Origin: Trichococcus alkaliphilus
GTDB taxonomy: Bacteria; Bacillota; Bacilli; Lactobacillales; Aerococcaceae
Reading direction: 5' to 3'
DNA length: 64,000 bases
Assembly: GCF_003008695.1 (NCBI RefSeq)
Contig: NZ_PXZT01000008.1
Span: forward strand, 62,001-126,000
Part shown: positions 12,610-45,255 of the stretch, piece by piece
Layout of the letters: every line of letters begins with the position of its first letter
Numbering within the stretch: the stretch's first letter is position 1
The notes under the pieces: generated by a model
What the model saw: the letters and a program-made list of their open reading frames with translations, nothing else
Told to the model about the DNA's origin: nothing
The model's database searches: none
Made by a program: the position numbers and the translations under genes

Positions 12610-15063
12610 ATGGACCATATCAGCATCATCGGCGCCAAGGAAGGAAATCTGAAGAACATCAGCGTGAACCTGCCCCGGAATAAATGGATCGTCCTCACAG
12701 GGGTATCCGGTTCCGGCAAAACGACGCTGGCGATGGATGTGCTCTATCAGGAATGCCAGCGCCAATATCTGGAGGCGATCGGCTACCAAGGGATCCGCAA
12801 ACCGAACATCGATGCGATCCGCAATGTGTCTCCCGCCATCCAAATCCAGCAGCAGGCTTACAATAAAAATCCGCGTTCGACTGTGGGAACGGTAACGGAC
12901 ATCTATACCGACCTGCGGATGTTGTTCGAGAAGCTAAGTTCCAGACGCTGCCCGGCTTGCCGGAAGGATTTCAGTTCGGCGGATTGCCGCGAGGAAACCG
13001 AAAAAACAGCCGATGACTTCAAGGTGTTCCAGTATTGCCCGCACTGTGATCAGCGGATGGAGAAGCTGACCCGCACCCATTTTTCCTACAACACCCGAGA
13101 AGGTGCTTGCGCAACTTGCCAGGGCATGGGGGAAGTGCTGACGATCGATGAGAAGCGGGTGCTCCATGAAGAGCTGGCGCTTGAAGAGGGCGCGGTCGTT
13201 TTTTGGGAAAAACGCTACCGGGATTACCAGTTGGAGTCTCTCTATGCCGCTTGCGCCCATTACGGAATTCCGCTAGAAAAAAATATGCCTGTGAAGGACT
13301 TTACGCCGGCACAGCGCGCGCTGTTGCTGCAGGGGGCCGAAAGCGAAGCGGTGCATCGGCTGTTCCCGGATGTGCCGGTACCCCGGACGGTTGCGGAAGG
13401 CCGCTACGAAGGCGTGTTGCCGAACCTTTGGCGCAGAATGGCGGATCAAAAAGGGGCTTCCAAACTCCGGGAAGCTTACTTTGAATCTGCCACCTGCCCG
13501 GAATGCCAGGGCGAACGGTTGAATGAACTGAGCAGGAGTGTGACGGTTAACGGGACGCGCTTGCCTGAACTGTCCGGGTCCTCATTGATCGACCTCATGG
13601 ATTGGGTCAGCAAGCTCGAAGTAAACCTGCAACAAACGGAGCAACTACTGGCGGGCGTTTATGTGGCGGATCTGAAGACCAAACTGAAACGGATCCTGAA
13701 GTTGGGATTGGGCTATCTGTCGCTCGACAGGCAGACGATGACACTGTCAGGAGGGGAAGCGCAGCGTCTGCGTTTGGCTGCTGTCCTCGATTCGGATCTG
13801 ACGGGTGTCATCTACATCTTGGATGAACCGACAATCAGTCTGCATCCAAAAGATACCGAAGGGCTCCTTGCTGTCCTGCGGTCGCTTAGGGATAAAGGGA
13901 ATACGGTGCTCGTCATCGAACATGACACAGCCGTCATGGCGGCCGCGGACTACCTGGTGGATATCGGTCCGGGAGCGGGGAAATACGGGGGCGAAGTCAT
14001 CGGGGAGGGAACGCTCCAGCAAATCAAAGATCAAGCGACATCCATCACCGGTGCCTACCTGAACAGCAAGCCGGAACCGCGCAAACTTTTCCGCAAAGGA
14101 ACAGGGGATGCTATTGAGGTGAGCCAAGCGGACAAGCATAACCTCCGGAATCTTACAGTCCGTTTCCCCAACGGCTGCCTCATTTGTGTCACCGGCGTAT
14201 CGGGTTCCGGGAAATCGACGCTCGTCTTCGATGTGCTGGCGAAAGGGGACACTACCGAATCACAGAACTCGAATCAGGTGCGCGGGACCGGCTCATTCGA
14301 CCAGATCGTTATCGTGGAACAGGCACCGCTCACCCGAATGAAGCGTTCGAATGTTGCGACCTATTCGGACGCCTACACGGAAATTCGGAAAATCTTCGGC
14401 AGCCAGCAGACTGCCATTGAAAATGGAATGACAGCCAATCGCTTCTCCTTCAATGTGAAAGGGGGGCGCTGCGATCATTGCGAAGGCTTGGGCGTCGTCA
14501 CAACCAACCTGTTGTTTTTTGAAGATCAGGAAGTCCCATGTCCGGTCTGTTCGGGCAAACGCTTCAAGGACGAAGTGTTGTCCGTGACCTACCGCGGCCA
14601 TTCGATCACTGCAGTGCTTGGCTTATCCGTTGAGGAAGGCGCGGAATTGTTTTCGGATTCGCCTAAAATCAGTGCCATCCTGACTCTGCTGCAGGATGTC
14701 GGGCTCGGCTACCTCGAGCTCGGCCAGACGACAACGACTTTATCCGGCGGCGAAGCGCAACGGCTTAAGTTGGCAGTGGAACTCCTTGCAAATCAAGGGA
14801 AAAAGAATCTTTATCTGATTGATGAACCGACTACCGGTCTGCACCCGCTCGATGTCGAAAAATTCCTGAAATTGTTGGATCGGATGGTTGATTCCGGAAG
14901 CACGGTGGTTGTTGTGGAACACAATCAACAGATCATCGGGGCGGCGGATTGGATCATCGATCTTGGTCCGGGAGGCGGGGATGCCGGCGGTAGGGTCATT
15001 GCGGAAGGAACCCCATCCGATATCCGAAAAGACATCAATTCGGCGACCGGAAAATTCATTTGA
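12610..15063 (+). CDS. UvrA-like ABC ATPase (UvrA paralogue)
   Basis: 817 residues with the UvrA layout. A first nucleotide-binding domain has Walker A GVSGSGKTT (about 35-45), a zinc-binding insertion (CPAC...CPHC, then CATCQGMGE), signature TLSGGEAQRLRLAA and Walker B IYILDEPT. A second domain has GVSGSGKST, a CDHCEGLG...CPVCSGKR zinc module, TLSGGEAQRLKLA and LYLIDEPTTGLHP. Housekeeping UvrA is about 940 residues. The shorter length matches UvrA2-type paralogues, which lack the UvrB-contacting insert and are linked to tolerance of DNA-binding drugs. A repair role independent of UvrB, or protection of the DNA, is therefore more likely than canonical excision. No uvrB or uvrC is nearby. Confidence 0.88.
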   Translation: MDHISIIGAKEGNLKNISVNLPRNKWIVLTGVSGSGKTTLAMDVLYQECQRQYLEAIGYQGIRKPNIDAIRNVSPAIQIQQQAYNKNPRSTVGTVTDIYTDLRMLFEKLSSRRCPACRKDFSSADCREETEKTADDFKVFQYCPHCDQRMEKLTRTHFSYNTREGACATCQGMGEVLTIDEKRVLHEELALEEGAVVFWEKRYRDYQLESLYAACAHYGIPLEKNMPVKDFTPAQRALLLQGAESEAVHRLFPDVPVPRTVAEGRYEGVLPNLWRRMADQKGASKLREAYFESATCPECQGERLNELSRSVTVNGTRLPELSGSSLIDLMDWVSKLEVNLQQTEQLLAGVYVADLKTKLKRILKLGLGYLSLDRQTMTLSGGEAQRLRLAAVLDSDLTGVIYILDEPTISLHPKDTEGLLAVLRSLRDKGNTVLVIEHDTAVMAAADYLVDIGPGAGKYGGEVIGEGTLQQIKDQATSITGAYLNSKPEPRKLFRKGTGDAIEVSQADKHNLRNLTVRFPNGCLICVTGVSGSGKSTLVFDVLAKGDTTESQNSNQVRGTGSFDQIVIVEQAPLTRMKRSNVATYSDAYTEIRKIFGSQQTAIENGMTANRFSFNVKGGRCDHCEGLGVVTTNLLFFEDQEVPCPVCSGKRFKDEVLSVTYRGHSITAVLGLSVEEGAELFSDSPKISAILTLLQDVGLGYLELGQTTTTLSGGEAQRLKLAVELLANQGKKNLYLIDEPTTGLHPLDVEKFLKLLDRMVDSGSTVVVVEHNQQIIGAADWIIDLGPGGGDAGGRVIAEGTPSDIRKDINSATGKFI

Positions 15064-15083
15064 TCCAGTAAAAGTGAAAATGA

Positions 15084-15112
15084 TTGACAGATGCCGAGAA
15101 AATCGCTATCTT
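15084..15112 (+). promoter_or_regulatory. consensus-like promoter of the Cys-rich leader/LysR unit
   Basis: A perfect TTGACA and TATCTT are 17 bases apart. The -10 box lies inside an inverted repeat (AATCGCT and AGCGATT, 15101-15126), a plausible operator for autoregulation. Confidence 0.75.
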
Positions 15113-15150
15113 ATTAGAAAGCGATTAGGAAAAGAAGGGGAGGCAGAACC

Positions 15151-15252
15151 ATGCAGAAGATGATGTGTTGTATGTGCGGATGTAAGAAACATGCAGGAAT
15201 ATTCTTATCATCTTTTGATCTCCACAACCGGCTGTTTTTGCCGGCTCTGTAA
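15151..15252 (+). CDS. 33-residue Cys-rich leader peptide upstream of a LysR gene
   Basis: A short frame with four Cys in its first 11 residues (MQKMMCCMCGCKKH) and a hydrophobic tail, stopping at 15252. It has one of the best ribosome binding sites in the window, GGGGAGG, seven bases before the ATG. It lies about 30 bases after a TTGACA promoter and 65 bases before an intrinsic terminator that precedes the LysR gene. This order (promoter, peptide rich in one amino acid, terminator, gene) is that of transcription attenuation, here sensing cysteine or Cys-tRNA. ACATGCA at 15189-15195, inside the peptide frame, can pair with the 5' arm of the terminator and could act as antiterminator (inference). 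Alternatively it is a small metal-binding protein. Confidence 0.6.
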   Translation: MQKMMCCMCGCKKHAGIFLSSFDLHNRLFLPAL

Positions 15253-15317
15253 AGGGGATTATGGGGCAGATTGTGCATCCGCATCCAAGTGAAGCGCTGA
15301 AATGATGATGAATACTC

Positions 15318-15355
15318 GTGCATGTGTGTTTTGTTGACGCGCATGCACTTTTTTT
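15318..15355 (+). terminator. intrinsic terminator or attenuator before the LysR gene
   Basis: GTGCATGTGTGT pairs with ACGCGCATGCAC (12 pairs, two G-T), with a seven-base loop and seven T. It is placed between the leader peptide and the LysR start codon at 15404. Confidence 0.8.
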
Positions 15356-15403
15356 GTGGAAATGATGGGAACCCATCGGAAAATAGAGCGAGGTGGCAAA
15401 AAT

Positions 15404-16336
15404 ATGAATCTTCAGCAATTGCGATACGTCATAACAGTGGCGAAATACGGCACTTTTCGGGAAGCCGCAAGGCAATTATATATGGCGCAGTCCAGTCTGT
15501 CGTCAAGCATCAAAGATCTGGAGGAAGAATATGGCATCCAGATCTTCGAGCGTTCCAAAAAAGGCATCGAAATAACCAAAGAAGGGGCTATGCTTTTGGA
15601 ATTCGCCGATCAGATCGTAGCCCAAGCGGACCAATTGGATTACCGCTATCTGTCTGCAACCGAAAACAGGAGACTGTTTTCCGTTTCGAGCCAGCACTAT
15701 GATTTTGCTTCGGAAGGCTTTGCCCGACTGGTTTCGGAAAAGAAGGAAGAATCGTTGAATTTCCGTTTCCTAGAGACGAGCACTTCCAAAGTGATGGAGG
15801 ATGTGCGGGACGCCGTCAGTGAAGTCGGCTTCATCTATCTGAATGATTTCAACGGGAAAGTCATCAAACAGTATCTCGAAGCGTTCGACCTGAAGTTCGA
15901 TCCGCTGATCGCGTTCCAACCGCATGTATTCCTCAGCGAGTTCCATCCGTTGGCGAAGAAGGAGAGAATAACGCAGGAGGAACTCCATCCGTACCCTGTC
16001 ATTTCCTTCGATCAAAGCAAAAACAGCACGCTGCAGTTGATGGAGGAATCGATCCAGGTCGATCAGAATGTCCAACGGATCAGCGCAAGCGACCGCGCGA
16101 CCGTGTTGAATCTGTTGTCAGTGACGAACGGTTATTTGGTCGGTTCAGGTCTCCTGAAATCGAACACGCAGGACCATATCATCGTGGTGCCGATGGATGT
16201 CGATCAAAAAAATACGATCGGCTTCATCTATTCGAAAGTGCGGCCGCTCAGCGCAATCTCCAAGCGCTATATGGAGATCGTAAGGGAATTGTTGGAGGGG
16301 GATCAACGAATCGAATTGACGTCTTCTGAAGACTGA
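15404..16336 (+). CDS. LysR-family regulator, possibly of sulfur amino acid metabolism
   Basis: 310 residues. The N-terminal winged helix-turn-helix is clear (MNLQQLRYVITVAKYGTFREAARQLY). It is followed by the LysR linker helix and a two-lobed effector domain (about 90-300) with SVSSQHYDFA and SASDRATVLNLL blocks. It shares these blocks with the second LysR protein of this window at 44344 (SISTQHYAF, LVSDRATLFNLV), which sits upstream of metF. The pair therefore probably belongs to the CmbR/MetR-like branch that senses sulfur metabolites (inference). Start ATG 15404 follows GAGGTGG. The Cys-rich leader supports a link to cysteine. A bidirectional terminator follows the gene. Confidence 0.85.
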   Translation: MNLQQLRYVITVAKYGTFREAARQLYMAQSSLSSSIKDLEEEYGIQIFERSKKGIEITKEGAMLLEFADQIVAQADQLDYRYLSATENRRLFSVSSQHYDFASEGFARLVSEKKEESLNFRFLETSTSKVMEDVRDAVSEVGFIYLNDFNGKVIKQYLEAFDLKFDPLIAFQPHVFLSEFHPLAKKERITQEELHPYPVISFDQSKNSTLQLMEESIQVDQNVQRISASDRATVLNLLSVTNGYLVGSGLLKSNTQDHIIVVPMDVDQKNTIGFIYSKVRPLSAISKRYMEIVRELLEGDQRIELTSSED

Positions 16337-16375
16337 ATCAAGAATTTATGACGGTTATTGTTCAACCAAATATAC

Positions 16376-16425
16376 AAAATGGCCATCCAAAAAGAGCGCA
16401 TTCGCCCTCTGTGGATGGCCATTTT
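16376..16425. terminator. bidirectional terminator
   Basis: AAAATGGCCATCCA and its complement TGGATGGCCATTTT form a 14-pair stem between convergent genes. Confidence 0.85.
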
Positions 16426-16464
16426 ATATGGAAAATATTTCAGTTGTACACGGAAAAATTGGGG

Positions 16465-17571
16465 TCACTCTGTAAAAAGATTATCGATATTCATCCGCAG
16501 TACGCGATCGATGCTCGGATTGCCATGGTCGCGATAAGGATATGCCGCAGATTCGAAGAGGATGTAGAGATGCTTTCCATCCACGACAATTTGCTCCATA
16601 TAGGAAGGCATTGTGATTTCGGTATTCGCATTTTTGTCCGTGAAGTCTTCATTTTCCTTAAGACGATCAAAGGAAAGCAGGGTTGAGTCATGCTTTCTGC
16701 CAGAAGAACGTGACAGCATCAGCTTTTCCTGATAAAAAGCCAGGCCTTGGATTTCTTTTCCGATCTTGTCGACGTCGTCAGGATAGGCTTCTTCCGTGCT
16801 TTTTCCCGTATCGAGCGCATGGACTTCCTTTCCGTCCTCATTTTCTTTTGTGGAGATTGCGTACCGGTGCATGACACTCGTCTCTTCGTCATCGAAATGC
16901 GCCACGTAGAGGTCATCGCCGTGGACCGTGATTGTAGAAGCGCGCTTGATGTCCGGAAGGTTGATACTATCGGTATACGTGATTGGTTCTGAGGAGGCTG
17001 TGAAATCATAGGTTTCGATGTCCGCCAATGACAGGGTGATGACTTGCGCGGTATCGTCTTTTTCTGACGTGACCCACAGCAGGTCGTGGTTGTTGTCAAA
17101 AGCCAGGCCACCTACATGCGGGATGCCGTCCAGGACGATTTCCTTGATGAAGGACCCGCTCTTTTTGTCCAACACATAGATGACGGAATTGTGTGATTTG
17201 GTTTTGCAATAAGCCGATATGAACAAGTAATCTTTGTTCACGGCCAACCCTTGCGGAGTCATAGTGGTGCAGATATCCGTTCCCTCGTGTTCATAATGGA
17301 GCGTCAATGTTTCATCCATACCAGGGATGACATAAGTATTTTTTTCCGGGTCGACACCTGCCTCTTCAAAAACCGCCTTGTACAGTTCAGGGTGCTTGGT
17401 CAATCCATCCTCCAGTGACTCGAATGAGCCGAGGCTGGCTTCCGTGTTCGTTTCATCGGCAAAAGCCAACCTTTCGATTTTTCCGTTCTTTGTGAGGAGG
17501 ATGAGCCCGATAATGCCCACCAAAACCACGCCGATCAGGACGAGCTTGATGTTTCTCTTTTTCTTTTCCAC
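16465..17571 (-). CDS. Membrane-anchored beta-propeller-like protein of unknown function
   Basis: 368 residues. A short basic N-terminus and one membrane segment (about 8-28, no lipobox) put the rest outside the cell. The remainder is a series of beta-rich units such as GLAVNKDYLFISAY, IYVLDKKSGSFIKEIVL, GLAFDNNHDLLWVTSE, DDLYVAHFDD and GLAFYQEKLMLS, the strand pattern of a six- or seven-bladed propeller as in YncE or phytase-like proteins. No catalytic residues can be assigned. The start is GTG 17571 with GGGAAG seven bases upstream. It follows the ABC permease on the same strand by about 100 bases with no clear terminator between, so a functional link to the exporter is possible but unproven. 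Confidence 0.55.
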   Translation of the reverse strand: MEKKKRNIKLVLIGVVLVGIIGLILLTKNGKIERLAFADETNTEASLGSFESLEDGLTKHPELYKAVFEEAGVDPEKNTYVIPGMDETLTLHYEHEGTDICTTMTPQGLAVNKDYLFISAYCKTKSHNSVIYVLDKKSGSFIKEIVLDGIPHVGGLAFDNNHDLLWVTSEKDDTAQVITLSLADIETYDFTASSEPITYTDSINLPDIKRASTITVHGDDLYVAHFDDEETSVMHRYAISTKENEDGKEVHALDTGKSTEEAYPDDVDKIGKEIQGLAFYQEKLMLSRSSGRKHDSTLLSFDRLKENEDFTDKNANTEITMPSYMEQIVVDGKHLYILFESAAYPYRDHGNPSIDRVLRMNIDNLFTE

Positions 17572-44343: not shown

Positions 44344-45255
44344 ATGACCTTAAAACAACTAAGATATATGCTGGCAGTCGCGCAGTACAAATCGATCAAC
44401 GAAGCCGCAAAAAAATGCTTCATTTCACAACCTAGCCTATCAAACGCCATCAAGGACCTTGAGGAAGAAATCGGTCTGGAGCTGTTCATCCGGACCGCCA
44501 AAGGCATCACTTTGACCGCAGAAGGCAGCGAATTCCTGAAGTACGCCCAGCAGGTGATCGAGCAAGCGGAGTTGCTGGAACAGCGCTACCTCGACAAGAA
44601 ACCGGCCAAACAATTGTGTTCCATTTCGACCCAACATTACGCGTTCGCCGTCAGCGCGTTCGTCAACATGATCAAAAAGAGCGGAGCGGATGAATACAAG
44701 TTCACCTTGCGTGAGACGCGTACCCATGAAATCATCGAGGACGTCAAAAGTTTCCAGAGTGAAATCGGCATCCTCTATCTGGATTCGTTCAACCGCAATG
44801 CGCTAAAAAAAATCCTGCAGGAGAGCCAATTGGAGTTCCATCCTTTGTTTGAAGCGGAACCGCACATCTTTGTCAGCGTCCGTAATCCATTGGCGTCCAA
44901 ACAGCGTGTTACCTTGGCGGACCTCGAGGATTATCCCTACCTGTCATTCGAACAGGGCGAGCATAATTCCTTCTATTTTTCTGAAGAGATTCTCAGCACC
45001 GTTTTCCATAAAAAAAGCATCCTCGTCAGCGACCGCGCGACTTTGTTCAATTTGGTGATCGGTTTGGATGGATATACCATCTCCACAGGCGTACTTAGTG
45101 AAGAGCTGAACGGCACGGACATCGTTTCGGTGCCGTTGGATGTCGAGGACCGGATGGTGATCGGTTGGATCGCCAACAAGAAAGCCGGAATCAGCCGGCA
45201 GGCAGCCGCCTATATCAAGGAGCTGAAGGCAGTGATCCGGACCTATGGGAATTAA
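44344..45255 (+). CDS. LysR-family regulator, probable activator of metF-metH
   Basis: 303 residues. The helix-turn-helix reads LKQLRYMLAVAQYKSINEAAKKCFISQPSLSNAIKDLEEEIG. The effector domain has LCSISTQHYAFAVSAFVNM and LVSDRATLFNLVIGLDGYTISTG, blocks shared with the LysR protein at 15404. It lies directly upstream of, and in the same direction as, metF, the activation-domain gene and metH. With their weak -35 regions and TATAGT-like motifs upstream, it is probably a MetR/CmbR-type sulfur amino acid regulator (inference). The ribosome binding site is modest (AAGG, eight bases before the ATG). Confidence 0.85.
   Translation: MTLKQLRYMLAVAQYKSINEAAKKCFISQPSLSNAIKDLEEEIGLELFIRTAKGITLTAEGSEFLKYAQQVIEQAELLEQRYLDKKPAKQLCSISTQHYAFAVSAFVNMIKKSGADEYKFTLRETRTHEIIEDVKSFQSEIGILYLDSFNRNALKKILQESQLEFHPLFEAEPHIFVSVRNPLASKQRVTLADLEDYPYLSFEQGEHNSFYFSEEILSTVFHKKSILVSDRATLFNLVIGLDGYTISTGVLSEELNGTDIVSVPLDVEDRMVIGWIANKKAGISRQAAAYIKELKAVIRTYGN

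Follow-up and report, generated by a model that had tools for sequence, protein, structure and literature searches.

A likely ribosome-mediated attenuator with a Met/Cys leader peptide upstream of a lysR gene in Trichococcus

Layout of the region upstream of lysR

We analyzed a 64,000-nucleotide stretch of Trichococcus alkaliphilus DNA (referred to as the window), in which a gene encoding a LysR-type protein of 310 amino acids (HTH_1 and LysR_substrate domains) lies at 15404-16336 on the forward strand, downstream of a uvrA-like gene that ends at 15063. A preliminary description of the interval between these genes had listed a promoter, an inverted repeat, a GGGGAGG motif, a Cys-rich reading frame and a terminator, and had proposed that lysR is controlled by ribosome-mediated attenuation in response to cysteine. 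The promoter is sigma-70-like, reads TTGACA-17-TATCTT (10 of 12 hexamer matches) and occupies 15084-15112 on the forward strand, a position from which transcription would be expected to start at approximately 15119. Both hexamers are present in 11 of the 12 aligned Trichococcus sequences, and T. palustris carries TTGAAT-17-TATACT at the same position. A scan of positions 14500-16500 returned 5 promoter-like sites against a shuffle mean of 2.0, and 3 terminator-like sites against 1.7 in shuffles; because these counts are near the shuffle level, a single match in either scan is little proof. Overlapping the -10 box is the inverted repeat AATCGCT-N12-AGCGATT (15101-15126, with no strand assigned), a candidate operator that possibly serves autoregulation by LysR. 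Ten of the 12 genus sequences have an intact core, ATCGCT...AGCGAT; G003 shows a single mismatch in it, and T. palustris lacks it. As a regulon finder the repeat was discarded, its sole other exact match in the genome (C5) lying inside a coding ORF at 1459-1968 (L085).

The GGGGAGG motif, at 15137-15143 on the forward strand, is the Shine-Dalgarno site of a 33-codon leader frame that runs on the same strand from the ATG at 15151 to the TAA at 15250-15252 (15151-15252). A Shine-Dalgarno-like site is found in all 12 aligned genomes, as GGGGAGG in 11 of them and as AGGGGAAG in T. palustris. The frame is translated as MQKMMCCMCGCKKHAGIFLSSFDLHNRLFLPAL and, as had been described, has four Cys residues among its first 11, at codons 6, 7, 9 and 11. 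Its earlier characterization as Cys-rich captured these four codons but missed the methionines: codons 4-11 form a mixed Met/Cys block (MMCCMCGC). When all start codons followed by 11 open codons were examined across the window in both orientations, only 3 of 4676 had at least four Cys within 11 codons; all three are nested in the leader frame, and a Shine-Dalgarno match is found only at the ATG at 15151. Late in the frame there is also a small G+C hairpin, CCGGC...GCCGG (15228-15244), which reads CGGGC...GCCCG in G004 and is retained only in part of the species.

Three RNA pairings can be drawn for the leader, all on the forward strand. The first, a 1:2 hairpin of 22 pairs (15154-15217), carries the Met/Cys codons in its 5' arm and would act as an anti-antiterminator. 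Region 2 (15189-15211), the 5' half of the antiterminator, lies inside the 3' half of this hairpin. Region 3 (15302-15325), the antiterminator's 3' half, shares 15318-15325 with the 5' arm of the terminator. The second pairing is the 2:3 antiterminator, a helix of 21 pairs between 15189-15211 and 15302-15325, which competes with both the 1:2 hairpin and the terminator. An antiterminator had previously been placed at ACATGCA (15189-15195); its position and pairing were right, but these 7 nt are only part of this longer helix. The third is the 3:4 intrinsic terminator (15318-15355), in which 15318-15330 pairs with 15336-15348 and is followed by T7. The terminator had been located correctly before lysR; its stem spans 15318-15348 and has 13 pairs instead of the 12 first counted. 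An Rfam search at the locus gave nothing above the gathering score (best E 0.35, to unrelated families), and on this account known RNA classes, riboswitches and T-boxes included, were rejected for the site.

Conservation and modelled folding of the leader in Trichococcus

The leader, terminator and lysR co-occur in 12 of 13 Trichococcus genomes. The 13th (G011), which is 51% complete, gave no leader match and no LysR at E <= 1e-40. LysR matches were found in T. collinsii, T. flocculiformis, T. paludicola, T. patagoniensis, T. ilyis, T. palustris and T. pasteurii, among others. Eleven close species and the divergent T. palustris (G005), in which the gene directly upstream is ttcA-like rather than uvrA-like, were combined in a 12-row alignment. 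Conservation of the peptide in related species had been set beforehand as a refuting test, and the Met/Cys block was found in all 12 aligned genomes, with a consensus peptide start of M[QKR][KM]MMCCM[CG]. Conservation in relatives had also been called for with respect to the hairpins and the Cys codons. The hairpins are present in 12 of the 13 genus genomes; the Cys codons are likewise present in 12 of 13, except that in G001 a change of codon 9 from Cys to Gly leaves only three of the four. Two synonymous changes were seen, both from TGT to TGC, at codon 11 in G003 and at codon 7 in T. palustris. In the latter species the block is 9 nt longer and consists of ten consecutive Met/Cys residues, MMCCMCCMMC (codons 4-13).

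Variation among the 11 close species is unevenly distributed. Few positions are variable in codons 1-16 (6 of 48), in 15199-15217 (1 of 19) and in region 3 and the terminator (7 of 54), while more are variable in the remainder of the frame after the stem (23 of 35) and in the spacer (18 of 49). Single-nucleotide deletions at 15199 in G007 and at 15218 in G003 shift the frame, giving peptides of 50 and 51 aa with altered ends. The stem segment ATCATCTTTTG is present in all 12 genomes despite these shifts; the G007 deletion lies 5' of the segment and the G003 deletion just 3' of it. This variation profile, together with the frame-shifted G007 and G003, indicates that conservation falls on the Met/Cys block and on the segments that pair, and not on the whole peptide.

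In the 12-row alignment, 95.8% of cells are paired for the 1:2 helix, 96.4% for 2:3 and 96.2% for 3:4; when the partners of the 2:3 helix were slid, 11-52% of cells were paired. Changes on both sides of a pair occur at 3 pairs of the 2:3 helix, a count reached by 1 of 500 shuffles, all of them contributed by T. palustris alone and dependent on its alignment. The 1:2 and 3:4 helices showed no both-side changes in this alignment and did not exceed their shuffles. T. palustris retains all three pairings with altered sequence and has strong 1:2 and 3:4 folds of its own, including a terminator of 15 pairs followed by a T run. From 17 to 22 of the 22 pairs of the 1:2 hairpin are kept in each of the 12 genomes; the ribosome-free folds of G001 and G009 prefer the antiterminator. 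A duplex energy test for G000 gave 17 and 24 of 300.

To model ribosome stalls, the RNA was masked up to the leading edge of the ribosome and thermodynamic folds of the truncated RNA were calculated. The ribosome footprint was taken to extend 12 nt past the first base of the A-site codon. When the A site was placed at codon 6, 7 or 9, the modelled RNA formed at least 19 antiterminator pairs in all 12 genomes. Among the 11 close species, a stall at codon 11 left 3 nt of the terminator arm paired and stalls from codon 12 onward left none; in most of them some outer 2:3 pairs persisted to approximately codon 15. In T. palustris, the terminator arm was paired with stalls up to codon 16 and unpaired from codon 17. 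The fold model thus puts a downstream bound on the stall positions that would work, and the Met/Cys block, at codons 4-11 (4-13 in T. palustris), falls inside it. Region 2 also becomes free in 11 of 12 genomes when the modelled stall is at one of codons 2-5, none of which encodes Cys, so that folding by itself gives the Cys codons no special place.

Ribosome-free folds contained 0-4 pairs of the 2:3 helix in 10 of the 12 genomes and 21 pairs in G001 and G009, so that the exclusion of 2:3 by 1:2 is not clean in the latter two. We also shuffled the spacer in 6 of the 12 genomes, and region 2 was exposed in 57 (G000), 52 (G001), 54 (G010), 54 (G007) and 33 (G003) of 200 shuffles. In T. palustris only 3 of 200 shuffles exposed it, which is unusual against chance. 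Since single-sequence exposure is within chance in 5 of the 6 species tested, the case for attenuation rests on comparison and not on any one fold. The same result speaks for the alternative that the terminator is constitutive and the 5' UTR structure acts without amino-acid control, with the frame translated by chance or never. That explanation nevertheless appears quite improbable, given that the conservation profile has sharp edges at the functional parts, that the Shine-Dalgarno-like site is never missing from the alignment and that T. palustris has changed both sides of antiterminator pairs.

The Met/Cys block itself could instead belong to a functional microprotein that binds metals or thiols, for example in sensing Cu(I), Zn or oxidants, with the terminator only tuning read-through into lysR. 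CCxCxC and runs of Met and Cys resemble metal-binding motifs, and the N-terminal residues are the best conserved part of the peptide. We regard such a function as highly unlikely: the later part of the peptide is not conserved and ends differently in two species, G001 is short of one Cys, G007 retains the RNA stem segment even though its reading frame is lost there, and the block sits within the stretch where, in the fold model, a stalled ribosome exposes the antiterminator. Finally, very little probability attaches to an arrest peptide, or sensor of antibiotics or ribosome stress like Rli53 and the erm leaders, taking the place of a sensor of charged tRNA; a comparable anti-antiterminator/antiterminator switch is described for antibiotic-induced stalling at Listeria Rli53 in the accessible part of PMC8079631, and modelled stalls at codons 2-5 work too, but the downstream gene encodes a transcription regulator and no resistance gene, and what recurs is a Met/Cys composition, lengthened in T. 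palustris, rather than one fixed sequence.

The LysR protein and searches outside the genus

The LysR protein has domains PF00126 and PF03466 above cut-off. Among the best 25 of 50 NCBIfam models, none reached its cut-off for this protein and no CmbR model appeared; CysB models scored 59-66 bits against cut-offs of 402-436. Matches to solved structures were distant and uninformative on function. The nearest relatives outside the genus, at 45-50% identity, come from g3, another genus in the same family, and the LysR tree joins Trichococcus with g3 at a fork with support of 96/94, which is provisional owing to long branches. Of 15 g3 genomes, 12 gave a locus. A Cys_Met_Meta_PP gene, encoding an enzyme of the cystathionine gamma-synthase type that falls below the NCBIfam cut-offs, is directly upstream of lysR in 7 of these 12 loci, and a transporter of the SDF family is directly downstream in 6. 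No Cys_Met_Meta_PP gene was found beside lysR in the 12 Trichococcus loci (L025-L036), within approximately 1.5 kb on each side, and the gene stands alone in the window. On the basis of the g3 neighbors, a role of this LysR protein in sulfur amino-acid metabolism is likely.

Several further loci were noted in the course of these comparisons. The window contains a second LysR paralogue at 44344-45228, 38% identical to the first, and no Cys leader was seen upstream of it (L119). A record labelled Sedimentibacter sp. SX930 (L014) has the Trichococcus locus with a LysR of 99% identity and is probably a mislabelled genome. At G000:C18:303262-305918, two T-box matches, one over and one under the Rfam cut-off, flank a Cys_Met_Meta_PP gene, and ordinary T-box control seems to operate near sulfur genes in the same genome. 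At E <= 0.001 the source genome gives 26 T-box matches, of which 14 are over the Rfam cut-off.

A search of 395 genomes of the order with a covariance model built on the 1:2 hairpin gave nothing credible outside Trichococcus (best E 0.06), under strict search filters that may miss weak relatives; its positives were the 11 sampled Trichococcus genomes, which match by construction. The motif ATG-ATG-TGY-N0-6-ATG-TGY occurs at 63 places in 59 of the 395 genomes. Ten of these places correspond to the Trichococcus leader, and inspection covered 41 of the remaining 53. Two of the 41 were leader-like (L060 and L061, both from genus g17), and 30 of the other 39 were rejected as lying inside or antisense to a long frame (19/20, 7 and 4 by batch). 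Upstream regions of LysR matches were screened by eye and for short frames with at least two Cys. In the 18 best matches outside Trichococcus (L037-L054), no similar leader was seen except at L050, which is the same g17 locus as L061; 38 further matches, mainly paralogues, had no leader of similar build, and none of Trichococcus build was seen upstream of lysR in the g3 loci. One g3 genome (L041) has a short frame with four Cys approximately 52 bases before lysR that runs into the lysR start, and L042 has a shorter, TTG-started form of it.

The g17 look-alike, found in 1 of 6 g17 genomes (G064), consists of MANELISINEYAVAANMMCMCHHVLWRVIR, a 14-pair terminator and a lysR of 39% identity. A 9-pair hairpin presents the Cys codons of its MMCMC leader in the loop, and the folds of this leader do not exclude one another as those of Trichococcus do. 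Homology of the two leaders was not supported: LysR proteins at 34-42% identity are also found on plasmids of quite different bacteria, and the LysR tree places g17 apart from Trichococcus, so that the resemblance is attributed to convergence or chance. In another g17 genome, G062, the MMCMC leader is decayed (L060, G062:C1 near 444415) and lacks a good in-frame start; a terminator-like hairpin but no lysR follows it, and it lies downstream of an M20-peptidase-like gene similar to a neighbor of the intact g17 copy. The same genome has an 82%-identical lysR at another place, without a leader, and L060 looks like a relic left after loss or relocation of lysR.

Proposed mechanism and comparison with known systems

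From sequence comparisons, we consider it likely that the element works by ribosome-mediated transcription attenuation and in this way sets the level of a LysR-type protein that probably regulates sulfur amino-acid metabolism. Attenuation before lysR, as first proposed, gains support from the comparison among the genus genomes. From the arrangement of the parts we infer stalling, termination, an amino-acid signal and a regulon, as follows. The leader would be transcribed and its 33-codon frame translated. With Cys-tRNA, and perhaps Met-tRNA, plentiful, the ribosome would clear the Met/Cys block, after which the 1:2 hairpin, or the ribosome itself, would separate region 2 from region 3; with these regions apart, the terminator would form and little lysR mRNA would be made. 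With Cys-tRNA scarce, the ribosome would stall at codons 6-11 and cover region 1, leaving region 2 to pair with region 3, so that no terminator would form and lysR would be transcribed. The LysR protein would then raise the uptake or synthesis of sulfur amino acids.

The peptide block is of Met and Cys and not of Cys alone, and it may report both sulfur amino acids. As a tentative extension, which we hold to be possible though somewhat less than evenly probable, the leader would gauge Met and Cys jointly as the sulfur supply and signal to a transcription-factor gene in place of an enzyme operon. If this joint reading is true, a tRNA-charging signal would be turned into a regulon-wide response, and the g17 MMCMC leader would represent the same device evolved a second time. 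In Gram-positive bacteria, sensing of amino acids by RNA is mostly the task of T-boxes. The attenuator, if confirmed, would thus be a second route from tRNA charging to sulfur metabolism, in the form of a cascade from translation to a regulon.

A literature search that left most subscription papers outside its reach returned no paper linking Trichococcus with LysR, or with attenuation and a leader, and, in the parts of the papers accessible to it, no leader-peptide attenuation of a LysR gene. The known systems below are likewise compared on the accessible parts of their publications. Cys leader frames before actinobacterial cys operons are reportedly a subject of the work of Canestrari from 2020. 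Frames of this kind, described in front of the cys operons of mycobacteria and of Propionibacterium and of cbs in Bifidobacterium (PMC1262725), resemble the Trichococcus leader in having runs of Cys codons in a short frame before sulfur genes; they differ in that they belong to Actinobacteria and precede enzyme operons, and the Mycobacterium regions are without conserved terminator hairpins. The uORFC-8-2 motif before cysS in Rhodobacterales (PMC8632094) has conserved Cys codons inside a stem, followed by a U run consistent with an intrinsic terminator. By its description, however, it is found in Alphaproteobacteria, precedes a tRNA synthetase gene and carries its two Cys codons in tandem, in most cases as codons 14 and 15.

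Among Firmicutes, Rli60 of Listeria monocytogenes is a ribosome-mediated attenuator of ilv-leu (PMC8079631). As far as that source describes it, Rli60 shares with the Trichococcus element a leader peptide enriched in the amino acids to which it responds, four regions with alternative 2:3 and 3:4 pairings, and a terminator before the genes, whereas it responds to branched-chain amino acids and controls a biosynthetic operon, in place of Met/Cys and a transcription-factor gene. His leader peptides have been proposed before two hisS paralogues in bacilli (PMC2965389), where, in the portion available, a Firmicute leader peptide again does a job done elsewhere by a T-box; the amino acid there is histidine and the genes are of the tRNA synthetase type. 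With respect to the regulator, CmbR, MtaR and HomR of Streptococcaceae control Cys and Met genes (PMC3616900; PMC5131005) and are similar in being LysR-family proteins of Lactobacillales concerned with cysteine and methionine metabolism, a likeness by description; a leader peptide is not mentioned in the accessible part of PMC3616900. Compared with these systems, the attenuation design proposed for Trichococcus is the classical one, and what would be new is the transcription-factor gene as its target, the mixed Met/Cys block and the bacterial group.
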